Shown: piece after piece, positions 15,204 to 24,085 of the stretch
How positions within the stretch are numbered: the stretch's first letter is position 1
Layout: each line of letters starts with the position of its first letter
Assembly (NCBI RefSeq): GCF_901875635.1
Contig: NZ_CABFMN010000134.1
Location: 1 to 24,085, forward strand
Source: Xylophilus ampelinus
Lineage (GTDB): Bacteria; Pseudomonadota; Gammaproteobacteria; Burkholderiales; Burkholderiaceae_C
Reading direction: 5' to 3'
DNA length: 24,085 bases
Notes under the pieces: model-generated
Databases searched by the model: none
What the model saw: the letters and a program-made list of their open reading frames with translations, nothing else
What the model was told of the DNA's origin: nothing
Program-made: the position numbers and the translations under genes

Positions 15204-16448
15204 TCAACGGTAGACCGGGAAGCGGCTGGTCAAGGCGTGGACCTTGGCGCGCACCGCGTCGATGTTGGCGGCGTCGCGCGGGTTGTCCAGCACGTCCGCG
15301 ATGAGGTTCGCGGTGATGCGGGCCTCTTCGTCCTTGAAGCCGCGCGTGGTCATGGCCGGCGTGCCGACGCGCACGCCGCTGGTCACCATGGGCTTCTCCG
15401 GATCCTTGGGGATCGCGTTCTTGTTGATGGTCATGTGGGCGCTGCCCAGCACGGCCTCGGCTTCCTTGCCGGTGATGCCCTTGGCGCGCAGGTCGACCAG
15501 CATCACGTGGCTCTGCGTGCCGCCGCTCACGATGCGCAGGCCACGCTCGGTCAGCGTCTTGGCAACGATCTCGGCGTTCTTGACTACCTGTTGCTGGTAG
15601 GTCTTGAACTCGGGCGTCAGCGCTTCCTTGAAGGCCACCGCCTTCGCCGCGATCACGTGCATCAGCGGGCCGCCCTGCAGGCCGGGGAAGATGGCGCTGT
15701 TGATGGCCTTCTCGTGCTGCGACTTCATCAGGATGATGCCGCCGCGCGGGCCGCGCAGACTCTTGTGGGTCGTCGACGTGACGACGTCTGCATGCGGCAC
15801 CGGGTTGGGATACACGCCCGCGGCGATCAGGCCGGCATAGTGCGCCATGTCGACCATGAAGATCGCGCCCACGTCCTTCGCGACCTTGGCGAAGCGTTCG
15901 AAATCGATGTGCAGCGAGTAGGCGGAAGCGCCGGCGATGATGAGCTTGGGATGGTGCTCATGCGCCTTGCGCTCCATCTCTTCGTAGTCCAGCACTTCGT
16001 TGGCGTCGAGGCCATAGCTCACCACGTTGAACCACTTGCCGCTCATGTTCAGCGGCATGCCGTGGGTCAGGTGGCCGCCTTCGGCCAGGCTCATGCCCAT
16101 GATGGTGTCGCCGGGCTTGAGGAAAGCGAGCATCACGGCTTCGTTGGCCGATGCGCCACAGTGGGCCTGCACGTTGGCGGCGTCGGCGCCGAAGAGCTGC
16201 TTGACGCGGTCGATGGCCAGTTGCTCGGCGATGTCGACGAATTCGCAGCCGCCGTAGTAGCGCTTGCCAGGGTAGCCCTCGGCGTACTTGTTGGTGAGCT
16301 GCGAGCCCTGGGCCGCCATGACGGCCGGCGAGGCGTAGTTCTCGCTGGCGATCAGCTCGATGTGATGTTCCTGGCGGGCGTTTTCCTGCTGGATGGCGGC
16401 CCAGATCTCGGGGTCGGTCTGTTTGACCAGGATGTCGCGGTGGTACAT
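15204..16448 (-). CDS. glyA: Serine hydroxymethyltransferase
   Basis: A 414-residue PLP enzyme, close to the E. coli length (417). It interconverts serine plus tetrahydrofolate with glycine plus 5,10-methylene-tetrahydrofolate, the main one-carbon entry for purines, thymidylate and methionine. Key motifs are [25 protein letters not shown] and [14 protein letters not shown], with Lys229 the expected PLP lysine (same number as in E. coli). The start at ATG 16448 has AAGGA upstream. That ribosome binding site can pair with the 3' strand of a ZTP-type riboswitch in the leader, so translation is probably raised when the purine intermediate ZMP/ZTP accumulates. nrdR follows after 22 bp. Confidence 0.98.
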
Positions 16449-16493
16449 GGCAGTCCTTCGATGAAGATGGTCCTTGCGGGTTCAAACCAGACA

Positions 16494-16622
16494 AGGGCTG
16501 CCCAGGCGAACGGCTGAACGCCTGCGGAGCAGGCGGTGCGCTTCCCAGTGGTCATTCCACGTCAGCGCAGGCGTCCGTCACCGTGGGTGAGGACGCTGCG
16601 CCTATCGCCAGTCGCGCACGCG
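16494..16622 (-). promoter_or_regulatory. ZTP (pfl) riboswitch in the glyA leader
   Basis: Read on the minus strand, the leader has the three conserved blocks of the ZTP/ZMP riboswitch in order: CGCGACTGGCG (16606-16616), GAATGACCACTGGGAAGCGC (within 16538-16558), and CCGTTCGCCTGGGCAGCC (16496-16513). Variable hairpins fall between them: GCGCAG-CGTCC with GGACG-C-CTGCGC, and CGCCTG-CTCCG-CAGGCG. The class binds ZTP or ZMP, signals of folate one-carbon shortage, and normally controls glyA, purH or folate genes, as here. The downstream segment GCAGCCCTT (16493-16501) can pair with the glyA Shine-Dalgarno region AAGGACTGC (16450-16458) at 8 of 9 positions, so control is probably at translation; no T-run terminator is seen. 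Confidence 0.88.
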
Positions 16623-16655
16623 CTGAGTGTAGCCGAGAGCCTGTATTTCACAGGC
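16618..16655 (-). promoter_or_regulatory. Putative glyA promoter with overlapping inverted repeat
   Basis: On the minus strand a TACACT hexamer (16626-16631) could serve as -10, putting the transcript start at the 5' edge of the riboswitch. The -35 is weak (CTGTGA region). A perfect 6-bp inverted repeat GCCTGT-ATTTC-ACAGGC (16639-16655) covers the -35 area. It could be an operator, or the 3' end of the upstream transglycosylase transcript. Confidence 0.4.
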
Positions 16656-16666
16656 GCAACGCCGGC

Positions 16667-17491
16667 TCAGGAGGCGGACAGCAGGGCGACCTTCTGCTCG
16701 GAGGTCTCCGGCTTGGCAGGTGCCACTACGGGCAGCGGCTGCGGCCGGACATTGGGCGGCAGCGTCGGCACCGCGCGGCCACCGGCCACCTGCTGGAGGC
16801 GGGCGTGCTCCGCGAGCACCTTGCCGGCATAGCCGCCGTCGTCCTCAAGGTTGGCCGCGCCGACGTAATAGCGAAGGCCGCCTTCCAGCGATCCCGCGCG
16901 GGCGATGCACTCCTGCAGAACCTTCACACCGACGCGCATGTTCGTGACGGGGTCGAACGCCGTCAGGATCCCGCCCGCGCTTTCGTACTTGTCGCCGTGG
17001 ACGCGGGTCATGACCTGCATCAGGCCCTGTGCGCCGACGTGGCTCTGTGCGAAAGGGTTGAAGCTCGACTCCACAGCCATGATGGCCAGAATGAGCGTCG
17101 GGTCGAGCTTGGTCTTGCCGCCGATCTCGTACGCCTCGGCGACCAGCACGCTCAGCGGTTCCACCGCGACGCGGTACTTCCTGCTGAGCCAGTAGGCCAC
17201 CGCAGCCTGCTGCTTCGGCAGCTCCGCCGGGCTGGCCGCCGTCGTGCGCTCGATCGCGTTCGGCTGCAGGTCGGTCGGCTCCGGCGCGGGCTTGCGCGAC
17301 TCCAGCCAGGCCACGAGCCGTTGCTCGCCGGCATGCTGGAGGTCGGGGCGGGCCATCAGTGCGACCACGGCGAACACAAGGGCCAGGCCGATGAGGGCGA
17401 AGCCGTTGTGCGTGATCTCGAAAAAGCCGTCGGCAACATCGCCGGCCACGGTCCGCAGACTTCGGGCGCCGGCTTGCAGGGCCTGTTTCAT
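16667..17491 (-). CDS. Lytic transglycosylase, SLT-domain, membrane-anchored
   Basis: A 274-residue protein with one hydrophobic segment at about residues 31-48, a linker, and a C-terminal SLT-type lytic transglycosylase domain (about 118-240). Catalytic Glu141 lies in AVESSFNPFAQ, followed by GAQGLMQVMT (153-162) and YYVGAAN (208-214, in place of the usual AYNAG-type motif). Such enzymes cleave peptidoglycan with formation of 1,6-anhydro-muramic ends in the periplasm; the role may be wall turnover or opening the wall for a secreted machine. The start at ATG 17491 has AAAGGAAG upstream; the longer frame upstream lies in the leader. A good promoter at 17691-17719 gives a leader of about 190 nt. 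Which transglycosylase family it belongs to is not clear. Confidence 0.88.
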   Translation of the reverse strand: MKQALQAGARSLRTVAGDVADGFFEITHNGFALIGLALVFAVVALMARPDLQHAGEQRLVAWLESRKPAPEPTDLQPNAIERTTAASPAELPKQQAAVAYWLSRKYRVAVEPLSVLVAEAYEIGGKTKLDPTLILAIMAVESSFNPFAQSHVGAQGLMQVMTRVHGDKYESAGGILTAFDPVTNMRVGVKVLQECIARAGSLEGGLRYYVGAANLEDDGGYAGKVLAEHARLQQVAGGRAVPTLPPNVRPQPLPVVAPAKPETSEQKVALLSAS

Positions 17492-17690: not shown

Positions 17691-17719
17691 ATTTTAAAAA
17701 CCGCTTAATACCTGGTCAA
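17691..17719 (-). promoter_or_regulatory. Sigma70-type promoter of the transglycosylase gene
   Basis: On the minus strand TTGACC (17714-17719) and TAAAAT (17691-17696) are separated by exactly 17 bp, each with 5 of 6 consensus bases. It lies in the most A/T-rich patch of the window. The predicted transcript start is near 17684. Confidence 0.75.
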
Positions 17720-17750: not shown

Positions 17751-18045
17751 GCATGTTCAAGGTTGCCGATGGACCTGCCCAGCCCCATAAAGAAATCGAC
17801 TTGCGCGAGGCCGCGCGGAAGCCTAATCTGGCCCTGCCTGTTCATCAGGCGCTTGCCGAGGCCCAGGATCGACGTGGCGTTCCGCCCAACCGATTCGCCA
17901 GCCGAGGCCCCCAACGGTGGCAATCTCTTGCCACCTGCGAGGACGGAACCATTGACCTTCCGTCCGAGCAAAGAGATGGCAGCGGACTTGAGCCGGCCAT
18001 CAAGCCCGGTGGCAAGACTTCACGGTCGAGCCACCGGGCTTTTTC
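17751..18045 (+). ncRNA. Structured leader RNA or small RNA upstream of the DUF748 gene (attenuator-like)
   Basis: No credible protein is encoded here. The plus strand has a chain of perfect stems: GCCTG/CAGGC near 17836-17850, GGTGGCAA/TTGCCACC (17916-17923 with 17928-17935), GGACGGAA/TTCCGTCC (17941-17948 with 17958-17965), GATGGC/GCCATC (17975-17980 with 17996-18001), and the terminator at 18003-18044. The segment CTTGCCACC (17927-17935) is also perfectly complementary to GGTGGCAAG (18008-18016) in the terminator's 5' arm. In addition, ATCTCTTGC (17923-17931) can pair with GCAAAGAGAT (17968-17977) with one bulged A. These exclusive pairings suggest regulated termination ahead of the DUF748 gene. 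A free-standing small RNA is the alternative. The class is not recognised and the 5' end is a guess. Confidence 0.6.
18003..18044 (+). terminator. Intrinsic terminator before the DUF748 gene
   Basis: AGCCCGGTGGC (18003-18013) pairs perfectly with GCCACCGGGCT (18030-18040), an 11-bp GC-rich stem with a 16-nt loop, followed at once by a run of T. The T-run is only on the plus-strand side, so it acts on rightward transcripts. It ends 42 bp before the DUF748 start codon. Confidence 0.88.
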
Positions 18046-18086
18046 ATTTGGGGAACGGCCACGCACTTGGGGCACACTCAGCCGTG

Positions 18087-21000
18087 ATGATGAAGAACGC
18101 TGCTTGGCTGAAACAGAACAAATGGGTGCGGCGCGGGATCGTCGCCGTGGCGTCGCTCCTGGTGCTGTGGCTGGTGCTCTGGCTGGCCGTGCCGCCGATC
18201 GCCAAGAGCCAGTTGCAGAAGATCGCCAGCGAGAAGCTCGGGCGAACCGTCACGGTCGGCAAGGTCGATTTCAAGCCCTGGAGCCTCGAGCTCACCATCG
18301 ACGACCTGCGCATCGCCTCGGCCCAGGCCGGCGCGCCGCCGCAGGTCGAGGTGCGGCGCCTCTATGCCGATGCCGAACTCCAGTCGGTGCTGCGCCTAGC
18401 GCCGGTGATCGACGCAGTCAGCATCGAAGGCCCGACCGTCCGGCTCGCCCACCTGGCCGACGGCAAATACGACATCGACGACATCCTGGCGCGCTTCGCC
18501 TCCAAGCCTGACGATCCACCGCCGGGCGAGCCGCAGCGCTTCGCCGTCTACAACATCGCCATCACCGGCGGCACGGTCGATTTCGACGACCAGCCCGTCA
18601 GGCGCAAGCACGAATTGCGCGACTTCGAGCTCAAGGTCCCATTCGTCAGCAGCCTGGCCTCCAAGCGCGAGGTCAAGGTCGAGCCCAAGCTGGCTTTCGT
18701 GTTGAACGGCTCGCACTTCGACTCTTCGGCCTTCAGCACGCCTTTCGCCGACAACCGCAAGACCGACGCGCAGCTGCGCTTCGCCGACCTGGACCTCGCC
18801 CCCTACCTGGGCTACGTCCCGAGCAGCTTGCCGGTGAAGGTGCTGGCCGGCACCCTCGGTGCCGACCTGAAGGTGGACTTCGAGCGCGCCAACGCGGCGG
18901 CCCTGAGCATCAGCGGCACCGTCGAGGCCCGCAACATCAAGGTGGCCGACGCGCAGGGCCGCGACCTGCTGGGCTTCGGCTCGCTCAAGATCGGGCTGGC
19001 CGACGTCCGGCCGCTGGAGCGCAAGGTCCACCTGGGCAGCGTGGCGCTGGCCGACCCGCAACTGGCCGTGGCCCGTGATGCGGCCGGCAAGCTCAACCTG
19101 CTGGCCACCAATCCGGCCACCGGTGCTACAGAAAAGGTAGCGCCTCCCGCAGCAGCGGCGAGCGCTCCGGCCCCGAATGCCCCACAACCAGCGGGCTGGG
19201 CATTGCAGGTCGACAAGGTGGCGCTCCAGGGCGGCAGTGTGACCTGGCGCGACGAGACCACGCAGCCCGCTGCAGCCGTGCAGATCAAGGACATGCAGGT
19301 CGAGGCGAGCGACATTGTCTGGCCCATGGCGAAGCCAGCACGCTTCGGCGGCTCGCTCAACCTGGCGGGCGCGCCTTTCAAGTTCCAGGGGGAGGGCACC
19401 GACAAGGCGGCCCAGGTCCAGACCGAGGTCGAGTCATTGCCGCTGTCGCTGGCCGCACCCTACCTGGCCAAGAGCCTGGAACCGACGCTCGACGGCAAGC
19501 TGGGCGGCCAGGTGGACATCGCCTGGGCGGCGCCGAACCTGCAGCTCCACGCCCGCAAGGTCTCGGTCGACAACCTGGCGCTGACGCAGGGCAAGACGGC
19601 GCTCGCCAGTGCCGGTCGTTTCGAGATCGCCGACGCCAAGGCCGACCTGACGGCCCACACGCTGGCCATCGGCAGCTTCACCGCGACCAACCCCAAGGTG
19701 CGGGTCGAGCGCGACGGCGAAAAGCGATGGATGTTCGAACGCTGGATGCGCACGCCCGCGGGCGGCGGCGATGCACCCGTGGCCGCCCCCAAGGCGCCGG
19801 CCGCCGAAGCCGCGCCCGGCAGCGCCAAGCCCTGGCAGCTCAGCATCGCCAGCCTGGCGGTGGACAACGGCGCCGTCAGCTACGCCGACAAGGCCAACGC
19901 CAGCACGCCCGTCGAGGTCGAGATCACCGCGCTCAGGCTCAAGGTGAACAATCTGGCGCCGGACACGGCGACGGTGTCGCCCGTCGAACTGTCGGGCCGC
20001 ATCGGCGCGGGCCGCCGGGCCGACCCCGGCCGCTTCGACTTCAAGGGCCAGGTGGTGCTCAAGCCGCTGTCGGCCGAGGGCCGGCTGGAAACCGCGGCCA
20101 TCCCCTCCCACGCCTTCAAGGCCTACTACGCCGACACGCTCAACGTCGACATCCGCCGCTCGTACACCAACTACCGCGGCACCGTGCGTTTCGCCCAGTT
20201 GCCGGCCGGCATCAGCCTCAAGCTGGCCGGGGACACGGCCATCGAGGACTTCCGCGCCAACAGCGCCACGCTCACGCAGAAGGGCAGCTTCGGCGACGGC
20301 AACCAGCAACTGCTGAGCTGGAAGGCGTTGAGCCTGCGCGGGCTGCAGGTCGACCTGTCGCCCGGCGCGCCCCTCAAGGTCGACGTGCGCGAGACCACGC
20401 TCACCGACGTGTTCGCGCGGATCATCGTCGAGGAGAGCGGCCGGCTGAACCTGCAGGGCCTGACCAAGAAGGGCGCCGTAGAGTCGGCGGCTGCCGCGAC
20501 CGACGCGTCCAGGCAGGACCCCGCGACACGGCGCCAGCGGGGCGGCGGCACGGTCACCACCAACGAGCCGGCGGCAGCGCCTGCACGCCCTGTGTCGGCC
20601 GAGGAGATGGTCGGCGGCGCGACGCCGGCGGCGCCCACGGCTCAGGCCGCTCGGCCCGAGGTGGCGCCCGACCCGATGGCGCCGGTCATCAATTTCGGCC
20701 CGGTCAGCGTCGTCAACGGCAAGGTCGACTTCACCGACCTCTTCATCAAGCCCAACTATTCGGCCGACCTGAGCGAGCTCACCGGCAAGCTCAGCGCCTT
20801 CTCGTCACGGCCCAAGGAGGGCCAGCCCACGCTGGCCGACCTCGAACTGCGCGGCAAGGCGCAGCAGACCGCGGCGCTGGAGATCACCGGCAAGCTCAAC
20901 CCGCTGGCCAAGCCGCTGGAGCTGGACATCACTGCCAAGATGCGCGACCTCGACCTGCCGCCGCTGTCGCCGTATTCGGTGCGCTATGCCGGCCACGGCA

Positions 21001-21881
21001 TCGAGCGCGGCAAGCTCAGCCTGGACGTGAACTACAAGGTGGCGCCCGACGGCCGCCTCACGGCCACCAACAACCTCGTCCTCAACCAGCTGCAGTTCGG
21101 CGAGGAAGTGAAGGGCGCACCCAACAGCCTGCCGGTGCGCCTGGCGGTGGCCTTGCTGGCCGACCGCAACGGGGTGATCGACGTCGACCTGCCGCTGTCC
21201 GGCTCGCTCAACGACCCGCAGTTCAGCGTCGGCCCGCTGATCTGGAAGGCGGTGCTCAACCTCATCACCAAGGCGATCACGGCGCCCTTCAGCCTGCTGA
21301 CGGGCGGGCTCGGCGGCGGCGGGGGAGGGGATTCCAGCATCGTGCCCTTCGACCTGGGCAGCTCGACCCTGACGCCGGCCGCCGCCCAGAGTCTGGACAA
21401 GGTCGTCAAGGCCCTGAACGACCGCCCGGCGCTGCGCATGACCGTGGTGGGCGTCTCGAGCTTCGAGAAGGAGCGCGAGGCCTACAAGCGCCAGCGTCTG
21501 CGCCAGCTCGCTCAGGCGGAAAAGCGCCGCGCCGCCGTGCGATCCGGCCAGGACCCGGCCCAGGTCGCGCCCGTGACCGACGCCGAATACCCGAAGCTGC
21601 TGGAGGCGGTCTACAAGCGCGCCGACATCACCAAGCCGCGAAACATGATCGGCCTGGCCAAGGACCTGCCCACCGAGGAGATGGAGAAGCTGCTGCTGGC
21701 CAGCATCCCGGTCGACGAGCAGGCGATCCGCGAACTGGCCGTGGCGCGCGGCGCCGCCGTGCGCGACTACCTGCTGGAGCACAAGCTGGCCTCCGAACGG
21801 CTCTTCCTCGGGGCCGTGCGCACCGATGGCGGCGGCGCCGACTGGAAGCCCGGCGCCGAGCTCAAGCTCGACACCCGCTGA
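18087..21881 (+). CDS. DUF748/AsmA-like envelope protein with OmpA-like C-terminus
   Basis: A 1264-residue protein. Residues about 16-38 form an inner-membrane anchor, and the rest should be periplasmic. The body reads as AsmA/DUF748-type repeats (for example VTVGKVDFKPWSLELTIDDL, and INFGPVSVVNGKVDFTDLF late in the protein), split by Ala/Pro-rich linkers at about residues 346-372, 553-575 and 799-868. From about residue 1085 the sequence VPFDLGSSTLTPAAAQSLDK and the later AVARGAAVRDYLLEHKL resemble an OmpA-like peptidoglycan-binding fold with a long insertion. AsmA-like proteins are linked to lipid movement to the outer membrane; that role is inferred here. ATG 18087 is chosen because the anchor begins just after it; the open frame extending to 17763 crosses the terminator. 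No strong Shine-Dalgarno is seen. A 23-bp mini-palindrome lies in the first linker. Confidence 0.85.
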   Translation: MMKNAAWLKQNKWVRRGIVAVASLLVLWLVLWLAVPPIAKSQLQKIASEKLGRTVTVGKVDFKPWSLELTIDDLRIASAQAGAPPQVEVRRLYADAELQSVLRLAPVIDAVSIEGPTVRLAHLADGKYDIDDILARFASKPDDPPPGEPQRFAVYNIAITGGTVDFDDQPVRRKHELRDFELKVPFVSSLASKREVKVEPKLAFVLNGSHFDSSAFSTPFADNRKTDAQLRFADLDLAPYLGYVPSSLPVKVLAGTLGADLKVDFERANAAALSISGTVEARNIKVADAQGRDLLGFGSLKIGLADVRPLERKVHLGSVALADPQLAVARDAAGKLNLLATNPATGATEKVAPPAAAASAPAPNAPQPAGWALQVDKVALQGGSVTWRDETTQPAAAVQIKDMQVEASDIVWPMAKPARFGGSLNLAGAPFKFQGEGTDKAAQVQTEVESLPLSLAAPYLAKSLEPTLDGKLGGQVDIAWAAPNLQLHARKVSVDNLALTQGKTALASAGRFEIADAKADLTAHTLAIGSFTATNPKVRVERDGEKRWMFERWMRTPAGGGDAPVAAPKAPAAEAAPGSAKPWQLSIASLAVDNGAVSYADKANASTPVEVEITALRLKVNNLAPDTATVSPVELSGRIGAGRRADPGRFDFKGQVVLKPLSAEGRLETAAIPSHAFKAYYADTLNVDIRRSYTNYRGTVRFAQLPAGISLKLAGDTAIEDFRANSATLTQKGSFGDGNQQLLSWKALSLRGLQVDLSPGAPLKVDVRETTLTDVFARIIVEESGRLNLQGLTKKGAVESAAAATDASRQDPATRRQRGGGTVTTNEPAAAPARPVSAEEMVGGATPAAPTAQAARPEVAPDPMAPVINFGPVSVVNGKVDFTDLFIKPNYSADLSELTGKLSAFSSRPKEGQPTLADLELRGKAQQTAALEITGKLNPLAKPLELDITAKMRDLDLPPLSPYSVRYAGHGIERGKLSLDVNYKVAPDGRLTATNNLVLNQLQFGEEVKGAPNSLPVRLAVALLADRNGVIDVDLPLSGSLNDPQFSVGPLIWKAVLNLITKAITAPFSLLTGGLGGGGGGDSSIVPFDLGSSTLTPAAAQSLDKVVKALNDRPALRMTVVGVSSFEKEREAYKRQRLRQLAQAEKRRAAVRSGQDPAQVAPVTDAEYPKLLEAVYKRADITKPRNMIGLAKDLPTEEMEKLLLASIPVDEQAIRELAVARGAAVRDYLLEHKLASERLFLGAVRTDGGGADWKPGAELKLDTR
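19122..19144. repeat. 23-bp mini-palindrome in the first linker of the DUF748 gene
   Basis: GGTGCTAC (19122-19129) pairs with GTAGCGCC (19137-19144), 8 bp with one G-T, around the loop AGAAAAG. It is translated GATEKVAP. The copy at 23938-23960 has the same arms, the same 7-nt loop length and the same reading frame (GATEVVAP). Confidence 0.75.
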
Positions 21882-22029: not shown

Positions 22030-24085
22030 GTGACCCAAGCTACCCCCAAACACGACCTTTCGTCCCTCGACCAGCTCACGGGCGGCGCCTTCACCGCGCC
22101 CACCTCGGGCGAGCGAGCGCAGCGCATCCGCGACTGGCTCGCCACCGATCCGGCGGCGGAGCTGATGCAGGAGGTCTTCAAGGAGCTCAGCGGGCGCGAC
22201 AAGGGCGCCGCCCGTGCGCTGCGCGAGCGGCTCGACGAGATCAAGCGCGCCAAGGGCCAGGAGGCGATCGCCGCCGAGTGGTCCGACAAGGCGCGCGCGC
22301 TGCTCGAGCAGCCGCGCCTGAACATCGCCGACGCCATGGCCTGGCAGCGCGACGCCGCCAAGGCCGGCGCCCCGCTCTCGCGCGAGCCGCTGGCCGGCTT
22401 CAAGTCGCAACTGGCCGAGCGGGTCAAGGGGATCGAGGACCTGCAGCACCGCGCGCAGGTCCACCGCGAGGCGGCGGTGCTGCTCGCGCAGCGCTTCGAG
22501 GTGCTGTCGACCAAGGGCTGGCAGGACGCGCAGGCGGCCGAGGAGGGCCTGCGCGGCGACGTGCAGCACTGGCTGGCCCAGGCGCAGGAGATCACGCAGG
22601 ACGCCAACTGGGGCAGCCTCGACGCCCGCTTCGCCCCGCAGCTCGACGCCTCGAAGGCGCAGCTGCAGGTGGTGTCTGACGCCTTCCACAGCGCGCTGGC
22701 GCAGACCGTGGCCGCGGCCGCGGACGCCGCCGCGCCGCTGCCGCCAGTGCCTGTCTGGGCCGACGAGATCCGCGCCGCGCGCGGGGTGCCGCTCGAATCG
22801 GTGCCGCCGGCACCGGCCAAGCCCGCTGCGCCCAAGGTCGACCCGGCGGCCCGTGCCGCGGCCGAGCAGGCCGTGCAGGCGGCGCTGGCCAAGCTCGAGC
22901 AGGAAACCGCCGAGGGCCACGGCAAGGCAAGCCAGGGTGCTGCCGCCGCGCTGCGCGCGGTGCTCAAGGAACACGGCCGCCTGGTCGGCAACGAGCTCGA
23001 GGCACGCGTGCATGCCGCGCTGGTGGCCGCCGGCGAGCTCGAAGGCTGGCAGCGCTGGAGCGCCGACAAGGTGCGCGAGGAACTCGTCGCCAAGGCCGAG
23101 GGCCTGCTCCACCGCCCCGACGGTCAGGCACTGGGCGGTCGCAAGATGCAGGAACAGCTGCGCGCCCTGCGCGAGCAGTGGAAGCAGGCCGACCAGGGCG
23201 GCGCCCCCAACCACGCGCTGTGGAAGCGCTTCGACGAGGCCTGCAACCAGGCCCACAAGGTGGTCGAGGCCTGGCTGGAGAAGGTGCGCGCCGACGCCGC
23301 CGAGCACCGCGCGCAGCGCCTGGCGCTGATCGAGGAGCTCAAGGCCTGGGCTGCCGCCCATGCCGACGACGACCTGAAGTCGCGCAACCGCAGCCTGCAC
23401 CAGTTCGCCGACCGCTGGCGCGATGCGGGCCACGTGAGCGAGAAGGTTTTCGCCGAACTGCAGCCGCAGTGGAACGAGGCCATGGCCGCCGCCCGCGGCC
23501 CGCTCGAGGCCGCGCAGAAGGCCAGCGTCGAGCGTCGCCAGCAGATGATCGCCGAGGCCAGCGAGCTGGGCGCTGCGCCGCAGTTGCGCATCGACGCCGT
23601 CAAGGCGCTCCAGCAGCGCTGGCAGGCCGAAGCCCAGGCGGTGCCGCTGGAGCGCCGCCACGAGCAGAAGCTCTGGGACGCGTTCCGCAAGCCGATCGAC
23701 GACGCCTTCCAGCGCAAGACGGCCGATCGCGAGCGTGCCGCCGCGGCGCTGGGCGAACACGACCGCGCCGTGCTCGAGGCTTCCAAGGCGCTCGAAGCGG
23801 CCAACAGCACCGGCGACGCGCAGAAGATCCGCGCCGCCATGTCTGGACTCGAGGCTGCGCTGCGCGGTCAGCGCGCCGCCCAGTCGGCCCCGGTTTCCGA
23901 GGCGAATCCGGCTGCAGCGCCCGACGGGCCTGCGCAAGGCGCTACGGAAGTTGTAGCGCCCGGCCAGGCCGCGGCCGAGTTCTCGGAGAGTGCGCAGCTC
24001 AGCGACGAAGGCACGGCCGATGCGGGCAGCGCAGCACCCGCACCGGCACCGGCCGACCTGGTCGCGCCGGCGGATGGCGCCGACC
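22030..24085 (+). CDS. DUF349-domain protein (cut by right edge)
   Basis: An open frame from GTG 22030 to the end of the window, 685 codons without a stop. The product is mostly helical and rich in Ala, Glu, Gln and Arg. Repeated units with the DUF349 pattern are visible: LREQWKQADQ...LWKRFDEACNQAH, LHQFADRWRDAGHV, and LQQRWQAEAQ...LWDAFRKPIDDAFQRK. The last 60 or so residues are an Ala/Pro/Gly-rich tail. DUF349 proteins have no firmly assigned biochemical function. In-frame sequence upstream reaches a stop at 21910 with no ATG between, so GTG is the best start; no Shine-Dalgarno is evident. The long open frames on the opposite strand here are composition shadows. A 23-bp mini-palindrome lies in the tail at 23938-23960. 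Confidence 0.85.
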   Translation, partial: MTQATPKHDLSSLDQLTGGAFTAPTSGERAQRIRDWLATDPAAELMQEVFKELSGRDKGAARALRERLDEIKRAKGQEAIAAEWSDKARALLEQPRLNIADAMAWQRDAAKAGAPLSREPLAGFKSQLAERVKGIEDLQHRAQVHREAAVLLAQRFEVLSTKGWQDAQAAEEGLRGDVQHWLAQAQEITQDANWGSLDARFAPQLDASKAQLQVVSDAFHSALAQTVAAAADAAAPLPPVPVWADEIRAARGVPLESVPPAPAKPAAPKVDPAARAAAEQAVQAALAKLEQETAEGHGKASQGAAAALRAVLKEHGRLVGNELEARVHAALVAAGELEGWQRWSADKVREELVAKAEGLLHRPDGQALGGRKMQEQLRALREQWKQADQGGAPNHALWKRFDEACNQAHKVVEAWLEKVRADAAEHRAQRLALIEELKAWAAAHADDDLKSRNRSLHQFADRWRDAGHVSEKVFAELQPQWNEAMAAARGPLEAAQKASVERRQQMIAEASELGAAPQLRIDAVKALQQRWQAEAQAVPLERRHEQKLWDAFRKPIDDAFQRKTADRERAAAALGEHDRAVLEASKALEAANSTGDAQKIRAAMSGLEAALRGQRAAQSAPVSEANPAAAPDGPAQGATEVVAPGQAAAEFSESAQLSDEGTADAGSAAPAPAPADLVAPADGAD
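23938..23960. repeat. 23-bp mini-palindrome in the C-terminal tail of the DUF349 gene
   Basis: GGCGCTAC (23938-23945) and GTAGCGCC (23953-23960) are perfect 8-bp arms around GGAAGTT. It is translated GATEVVAP, in the same phase as the DUF748 copy. Confidence 0.75.

Follow-up and report, generated by a model that had tools for sequence, protein, structure and literature searches.

Among the described RNAs closest to the one reported here, 6S RNA has the shape of one long rod with a central bubble, and Hfq-dependent small RNAs usually have T tails longer than three. A candidate motif named Burkholderiales-1 is given in a table line of PMC2864571, where it carries no Rfam number. By term search, the main texts of two later structured-RNA screens (PMC11109978, PMC8632094) do not name the host groups of the present RNA, and literature searches returned no description of it among the matches listed.

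Here we analysed a stretch of 24,085 nt from Xylophilus ampelinus (the whole of it is referred to as "the window"). A preliminary description had proposed an attenuator-like RNA with mutually exclusive stems ahead of the DUF748 gene, and had named a free small RNA as the last of its readings. From comparison of related sequences, we consider it probable (about 0.78) that positions 17836-18046 (+) constitute an independent non-coding RNA gene, whichever partner its product has. The promoter, structure, spread and neighbourhood described below all fit the reading that had been named last.

Extent and parts of the RNA

The stems drawn in the preliminary description are real and form the 3′ part of a longer RNA; the extent given there needed correction, as the RNA is predicted to begin at ~17836, behind its own promoter at 17801-17829. 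This promoter consists of a -35 element TTGCGC (17801-17806, +) and a -10 element TAATCT (17824-17829, +), from which the RNA start was placed. Taken together with the terminator and the covariation, the promoter position suggests a full transcript of ~210 nt.

We compiled 110 copies, comprising the 71 of the model-aligned set described below and 39 more, including close relatives (the set excludes L125, L144-L146 and loci retrieved again from a genome already represented). A 5′ hairpin (P0) was recognisable in 101 of them, and the nine copies without it were omitted from the counts of promoters, RNA lengths and T runs. The promoter counts were anchored on P0 alone, leaving the promoter itself unused. 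Measured from the 5′ hairpin, TTG occurs at exactly -35 in 70/101 copies and TAnnnT at exactly -12 in 88/101. The combined pattern TTGnnn-N16-18-TAnnnT was found in 84/101 copies, as compared to a mean of 1.0 and a maximum of 4 when the letters of the same 40 bases were shuffled. Thus, a sigma-70-like promoter lies at fixed spacing upstream of P0 in most copies. The RNA has a median size of 211 nt (range 166-264), and the longest T run near its 3′ end is 3 in 55/101 copies and 4-8 in the others.

From 5′ to 3′, the structure comprises P0, a clade-variable longer stem domain, hairpins P1, P2 and P3, and the terminator, all on the + strand. In an alignment of 29 sequences made with MAFFT, P0 (GCCTG/CAGGC, 17836-17850) has 95.9% of its cells paired and changes on both sides in 3/5 pairs, and the closing helix of the long-stem domain (17855-17908, located by the fold) has 79.1% paired. 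This closing helix is of the GCCGG/CCGGC type in a subset of the copies (17/89). Statistics for the remaining parts come from the 71-copy alignment. Hairpin P1 (17916-17935) bears the hallmark GGnnGCAAU-nnn-UUGCnnCC and has 99.3% of cells paired; its two loop-adjacent A-U pairs and the first loop U are invariant (71/71), and the next two pairs are nearly so (70 and 68 of 71). P2 (17936-17970) consists of an outer helix (83.8% paired, with 6/6 pairs changing both sides in some sequence) and an inner helix within the same interval (97.5%, 3/4 pairs). The outer helix of P3 (GAYGGC/GCCRUC, 17975-18001) is 99.8% paired. The intrinsic terminator hairpin (18002-18041) is 94.0% paired, with both-side changes in 8 of the 12 outer pairs seen in the fold, and the T-rich tail starts at 18042-18046. 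Terminator stems with GCCCG/CGGGC, as here, are common in such genomes.

Segments named in the preliminary description were found where it had placed them: the GGTGGCAA/TTGCCACC hairpin at 17916-17935, perfect stems inside 17941-17965 and 17975-18001, and GGTGGCAAG (18008-18016) within the 5′ arm of the terminator, which ends 42 nt ahead of the DUF748 start at 18087.

Fold and covariation

The region 17905-18050 has a predicted folding energy of -74.5 kcal/mol (z -6.5 versus dinucleotide shuffles), and none of 200 shuffles folded equally well. In the alignment of 71 copies to the model, 2997 cells were counted and 94.0% of them pair, compared with 81.6% after shuffling (0/500 as high), and 29 of the 43 pairs show changes on both sides (412 such cells versus 122 shuffled). 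Slid controls reached only 36-45% paired on this alignment, and 32-45% over both alignments. As the 71-copy alignment was fitted to the model and is hence biased towards it, the count was redone on the MAFFT alignment of 29 diverse full-length copies, from which the structure counted was itself predicted. In this case 90.9% of cells pair versus 83.1% shuffled, with both-side changes in 32/53 pairs (148 cells versus 50). The intrinsic terminator is conserved in both covariation alignments. Among 23 close relatives, the native fold is 98.6% paired, versus 93.4% shuffled.

Conservation is concentrated in the stems, with a mean column identity of 0.78 for paired and 0.57 for unpaired columns. Only six scattered letters are conserved at ≥90% among the unpaired columns, and the longest unpaired run conserved at 80% spans 3 columns and is located in the tail. 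In the computed fold, the P1 and P2 loops stay unpaired. Part of the stem conservation could stem from selection for the fold alone.

We also considered a coding reading in the DUF748 frame, which in the window has no stop for 363 nt upstream. Over 27 sequences, the upstream in-frame stop lies at 36-396 nt, and because 17 of them have it no more than 150 nt away, coding in this frame was rejected. Indels and the covarying stems agree with a non-coding region.

Distribution and copy number

A scan with the DUF748 protein yielded 32 loci, and the same element precedes DUF748 in all 26 of the loci L001-L026, which come from Xenophilus, Variovorax and three relatives with less precise names. The DUF748 protein of the window is 94-97% identical, over the best segment, to those of six loci, including Xenophilus aerolatus, which marks the source of the window as a Xenophilus/Variovorax-like bacterium. 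A first covariance model was built for the 3′ core (17914-18046) from 23 of 27 sequences (the window and the 26 loci), and a second from the 71 more diverse copies.

With the first model, the RNA was detected in 5/5 of the first genomes, including Acidovorax sp. Leaf78, with one copy in each. Under stricter filters, the same model matched 89 genomes in a draw of 299 from the family to which a Variovorax genome belongs. The second model matched 17 of 40 genomes of this family under laxer filters (14 at E<1e-10 and three weak), 40 of 41 genomes of the Variovorax genus and 38 of 40 of the Acidovorax-Leaf78 genus. There is almost always one match per genome, the exceptions being G256 and G090. In G256 two matches (L100 and L125) lie on different contigs, one full (67 bits) and one weak (37.5 bits), and the second may be either an extra copy or an assembly effect. 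The second match in G090 has an E of 9.6e-4.

An order-wide search matched 11 of 399 genomes. Nine of these apparently came from the family draw, as their handles are numbered below G304, and the other two are terminator-only look-alikes (L133, L134). In a draw of 41 genomes for which more candidates were scored per genome, the centre genome was the sole match. At this search sensitivity the RNA is restricted to one family; distant copies may be missed, because in the large searches few candidates were scored in each genome. Among the 23 of 40 family genomes without an RNA match, 22 have a homologue of the SLT transglycosylase (see below), and a filter-free scan of those 22 loci gave one weak candidate (L147, E 3.3e-5), followed by a next best of E 0.07. 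No match was found in plasmid records, and no DUF748 relative was found on viral contigs.

Genomic neighbourhood

In the window, the RNA is flanked downstream by the DUF748 gene (18087-21881, +; Pfam PF05359, E 1.1e-283), which lies outside the RNA, and upstream by its usual neighbour, a divergent SLT lytic transglycosylase gene (16667-17491, -; Pfam PF01464) with a probable start codon at 17491. The SLT gene is upstream of the RNA in 34 of 34 loci surveyed among the matches of the first model, and DUF748 is downstream in 24. In two of the ten loci without DUF748 (L057 and L063), the contig ends soon past the RNA. In at least four loci (L043, L054, L058 and L064) the next ORF matches a DUF349 protein in its N-terminal part; five such ORFs, all cut by the locus end, were tested, and two had a Pfam DUF349 match.

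Among 29 further loci with long flanks (L127-L146 minus L133 and L134, plus L169-L179; some genomes are shared with the short-flank loci), SLT was detected in 26 and DUF748 in 16. SLT was not found in L141, L144 and L146, and eight loci of the Leaf78 genus (L172-L179) have SLT and no DUF748. In the full count of 91 loci the values are 47 for SLT and 55 for DUF748. We prefer the 29 long-flank loci, because 60 of the 91 (L067-L126) have flanks of ≤600 nt, too short for SLT to be seen. The genome of Acidovorax sp. Leaf78 has the RNA on a contig of 154,699 bases and the DUF748 relative on another, of 287,881 bases. From these surveys we infer that the RNA usually lies between the transglycosylase gene and a DUF349-type gene, with DUF748 present or not, and is not tied to one downstream gene.

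Several other features were noted around the RNA. A probable DUF349-type gene follows DUF748 in the window, with a GTG at ~22030, and appears to run out of the window end (22030-24085, +). In L144, a weak P1-bearing match (1501-1641) has a DUF349-type gene downstream, and another ORF replaces the transglycosylase. Between the terminator and the DUF748 start is a box GGCACACTC (18071-18079, +). Boxes like GGCACACTC, of the form G[GC]CA[CA]ACT[CT], occur in 26/27 sequences at a distance of 1-14 nt ahead of the matched DUF748 start, and may represent a -10-like element of DUF748 itself, which would give a nearly leaderless mRNA. On the opposite strand, a sigma-70-like promoter (17691-17719, -) faces the transglycosylase gene, leaving a leader of ~190 nt to the likely start at 17491. 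Further along, a ZMP/ZTP riboswitch (16493-16625, -; 54.6 bits, cut-off 39) is directly ahead of a glyA-type gene (15204-16448), and in several relatives a ZMP/ZTP riboswitch above cut-off was also detected near the RNA.

Alternative explanations

The preliminary description proposed a cis-acting attenuator or riboswitch of DUF748, in which the 3′ arm of P1 pairs with the 5′ arm of the terminator and so switches termination. The alternative pairings are possible on paper, as in the window the antiterminator forms 9/9 pairs and a second alternative stem (AUCUCUU/AAGAGAU, 17923-17929/17971-17977) forms 7/7. In an alignment of 23 sequences (the window plus the full-length named loci, of which L005, L008, L011 and L015 were omitted, leaving 22 of 26), the 9-bp antiterminator is complete in six, namely the window and 5 of the 22 relatives, and incomplete in 17, with 5 to 8 of 9 pairs (5-6 in L006, L012, L013 and L024); the second alternative stem is complete in five and incomplete in 18. 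For the antiterminator, two of five measures on this alignment exceed their controls. Both-side-change cells numbered 13 versus 2.4 shuffled (1/500), the covariation score was 0.287 versus 0.242 (7/500), and pairing was 86.0% versus 84.4%, with 32/500 shuffles as high. However, the both-side changes are confined to two pairs. Native stems can explain them, since all four columns concerned belong to pairs of P1 or the terminator; three of these columns change both sides with their native partners, and the fourth shows only a change from G-U to G-C. The second alternative stem is 81.9% paired, versus 82.5% shuffled. Permuting the arms among all 103 usable copies (seven of the 110, with ambiguous terminator arms, were omitted) gave a native duplex mean of -7.34 versus -6.86 for permuted arms (0/500), but it is near-identical Xenophilus copies that carry this pooled signal. 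In the 80 more distant copies (L043 on) the values are -6.34 and -6.17, with 70/500 permutations as low. The antiterminator is the best fold when the transcript is cut to 17905-18020, where the 5′ domain is absent. The energy penalty for forcing it is +13.8 kcal/mol in the complete RNA. For the nascent RNA that ends at 18020 the penalty is +4.8, and there the pairs of P1 have probabilities of 0.66-0.999, compared with 0.001 for the antiterminator. Moreover, DUF748 does not constantly lie downstream, being missing in 10/34 loci (two of them cut by contig ends) and in 13/29. Pair counts, arm permutation and constrained folding therefore give no conserved, mutually exclusive antiterminator: the terminator and native stems are kept with strong covariation, and the alternative stems are not kept, the contrary signals being weak and from close relatives. 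This is for the most part the pattern that the preliminary description had named as refuting it. As the antiterminator is costly, fails in several relatives and shows no coevolution in the 80 distant copies, the attenuator reading is not supported, and we consider it very improbable.

The view of the preliminary description that the RNA belongs to no known riboswitch class is well supported. A search of the window against Rfam 15 gave no match at the RNA up to E 5. In 16 further loci, searched up to E 1, the sole line at the RNA was snoR144 (E 0.57) over the copy in L046, with 26.5 bits versus a cut-off of 100. In these searches and in one of eight loci (four of them new), only ZMP-ZTP exceeded its gathering cut-off, beside the RNA and not on it. 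A diverged form of a known housekeeping RNA, of the 6S or CsrB/RsmZ type, could be expected to be single-copy and near-universal, as this RNA is in two genera, but the absence of any Rfam match above cut-off at the RNA, in the window or the further loci, argues against it. 6S RNA (RF00013) matches occur at other places in 9 of 10 genomes with this RNA (2/10 above cut-off), and instead of the many loop GGA motifs of CsrB/RsmZ there is a mean of 0.25 unpaired GGA per RNA (maximum 2). Such an origin is the least credible of the explanations considered. Within the reading of an independent RNA gene, the RNA could act as an antisense small RNA that depends on Hfq or ProQ and base-pairs with distant mRNAs via its loops or linkers. 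An independent intergenic RNA that ends in an intrinsic terminator, with the P1 and P2 loops unpaired in the fold, is consistent with this. Against it are the sparsity of conserved unpaired letters and a longest T run that, in the 55 copies noted above, is below the usual Hfq tails; an antisense seed restricted to one clade would go unnoticed in the conservation test. Antisense pairing is possible, at rather less than even odds.

Possible function

In the reading we prefer, that of an independent RNA gene, ~210 nt of heavily structured RNA would be transcribed from its own promoter up to its own terminator, from a nearly always single-copy gene adjoining a divergent transglycosylase gene, and would most likely act in trans. 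The computed support covers promoter conservation, structure, copy number and independence from DUF748. The folded RNA may be recognised by a protein, either within a ribonucleoprotein (RNP) or as a protein-sequestering RNA. This is somewhat more likely (slightly better than even) than antisense pairing via loops or linkers (about one chance in three), because conservation falls mainly on paired stem positions and on few unpaired letters. More specifically, and as an idea we hold doubtful, this core single-copy RNA of one family may be the RNA part of a new RNP or a protein-sequestering RNA that is recognised via the GCAAU/UUGC hairpin and the fixed stems. Local regulation could also account for the linkage in a shared block, in which SLT is followed by DUF748 or a DUF349-type gene, and read-through into the downstream gene is possible.

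A structured RNA that is near-universal and single-copy in two genera of environmental bacteria and matches no Rfam family lends itself readily to functional study. The alignment and models predict both ends of the RNA and supply a hallmark hairpin and a genome list, so that deletion and pull-down are directly possible. The case also indicates that neighbourhoods should be compared before a terminator that precedes a gene is read as the attenuator of that gene.

Comparison with known systems

Terminator/antiterminator leaders resemble this locus in having a terminator near a start codon, and in Xenophilus a segment can pair with the 5′ arm. They differ in that the alternative stem here is not kept across relatives, the RNA has its own predicted promoter and the downstream gene changes. 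Like 6S RNA (RF00013), the RNA is single-copy, similar in length and widely kept; unlike 6S RNA, it consists of separate hairpins in a row, the last being a terminator, and separate 6S candidates are present in 9 of 10 genomes. The Burkholderiales-1 motif (PMC2864571), compared by its table line alone, is alike in being listed for Burkholderiales. The RNA shares with bacterial intergenic small RNA genes a promoter, length, terminator, intergenic site and conserved fold, and differs from them in that its conserved letters are mostly in stems and not in a single-stranded seed.
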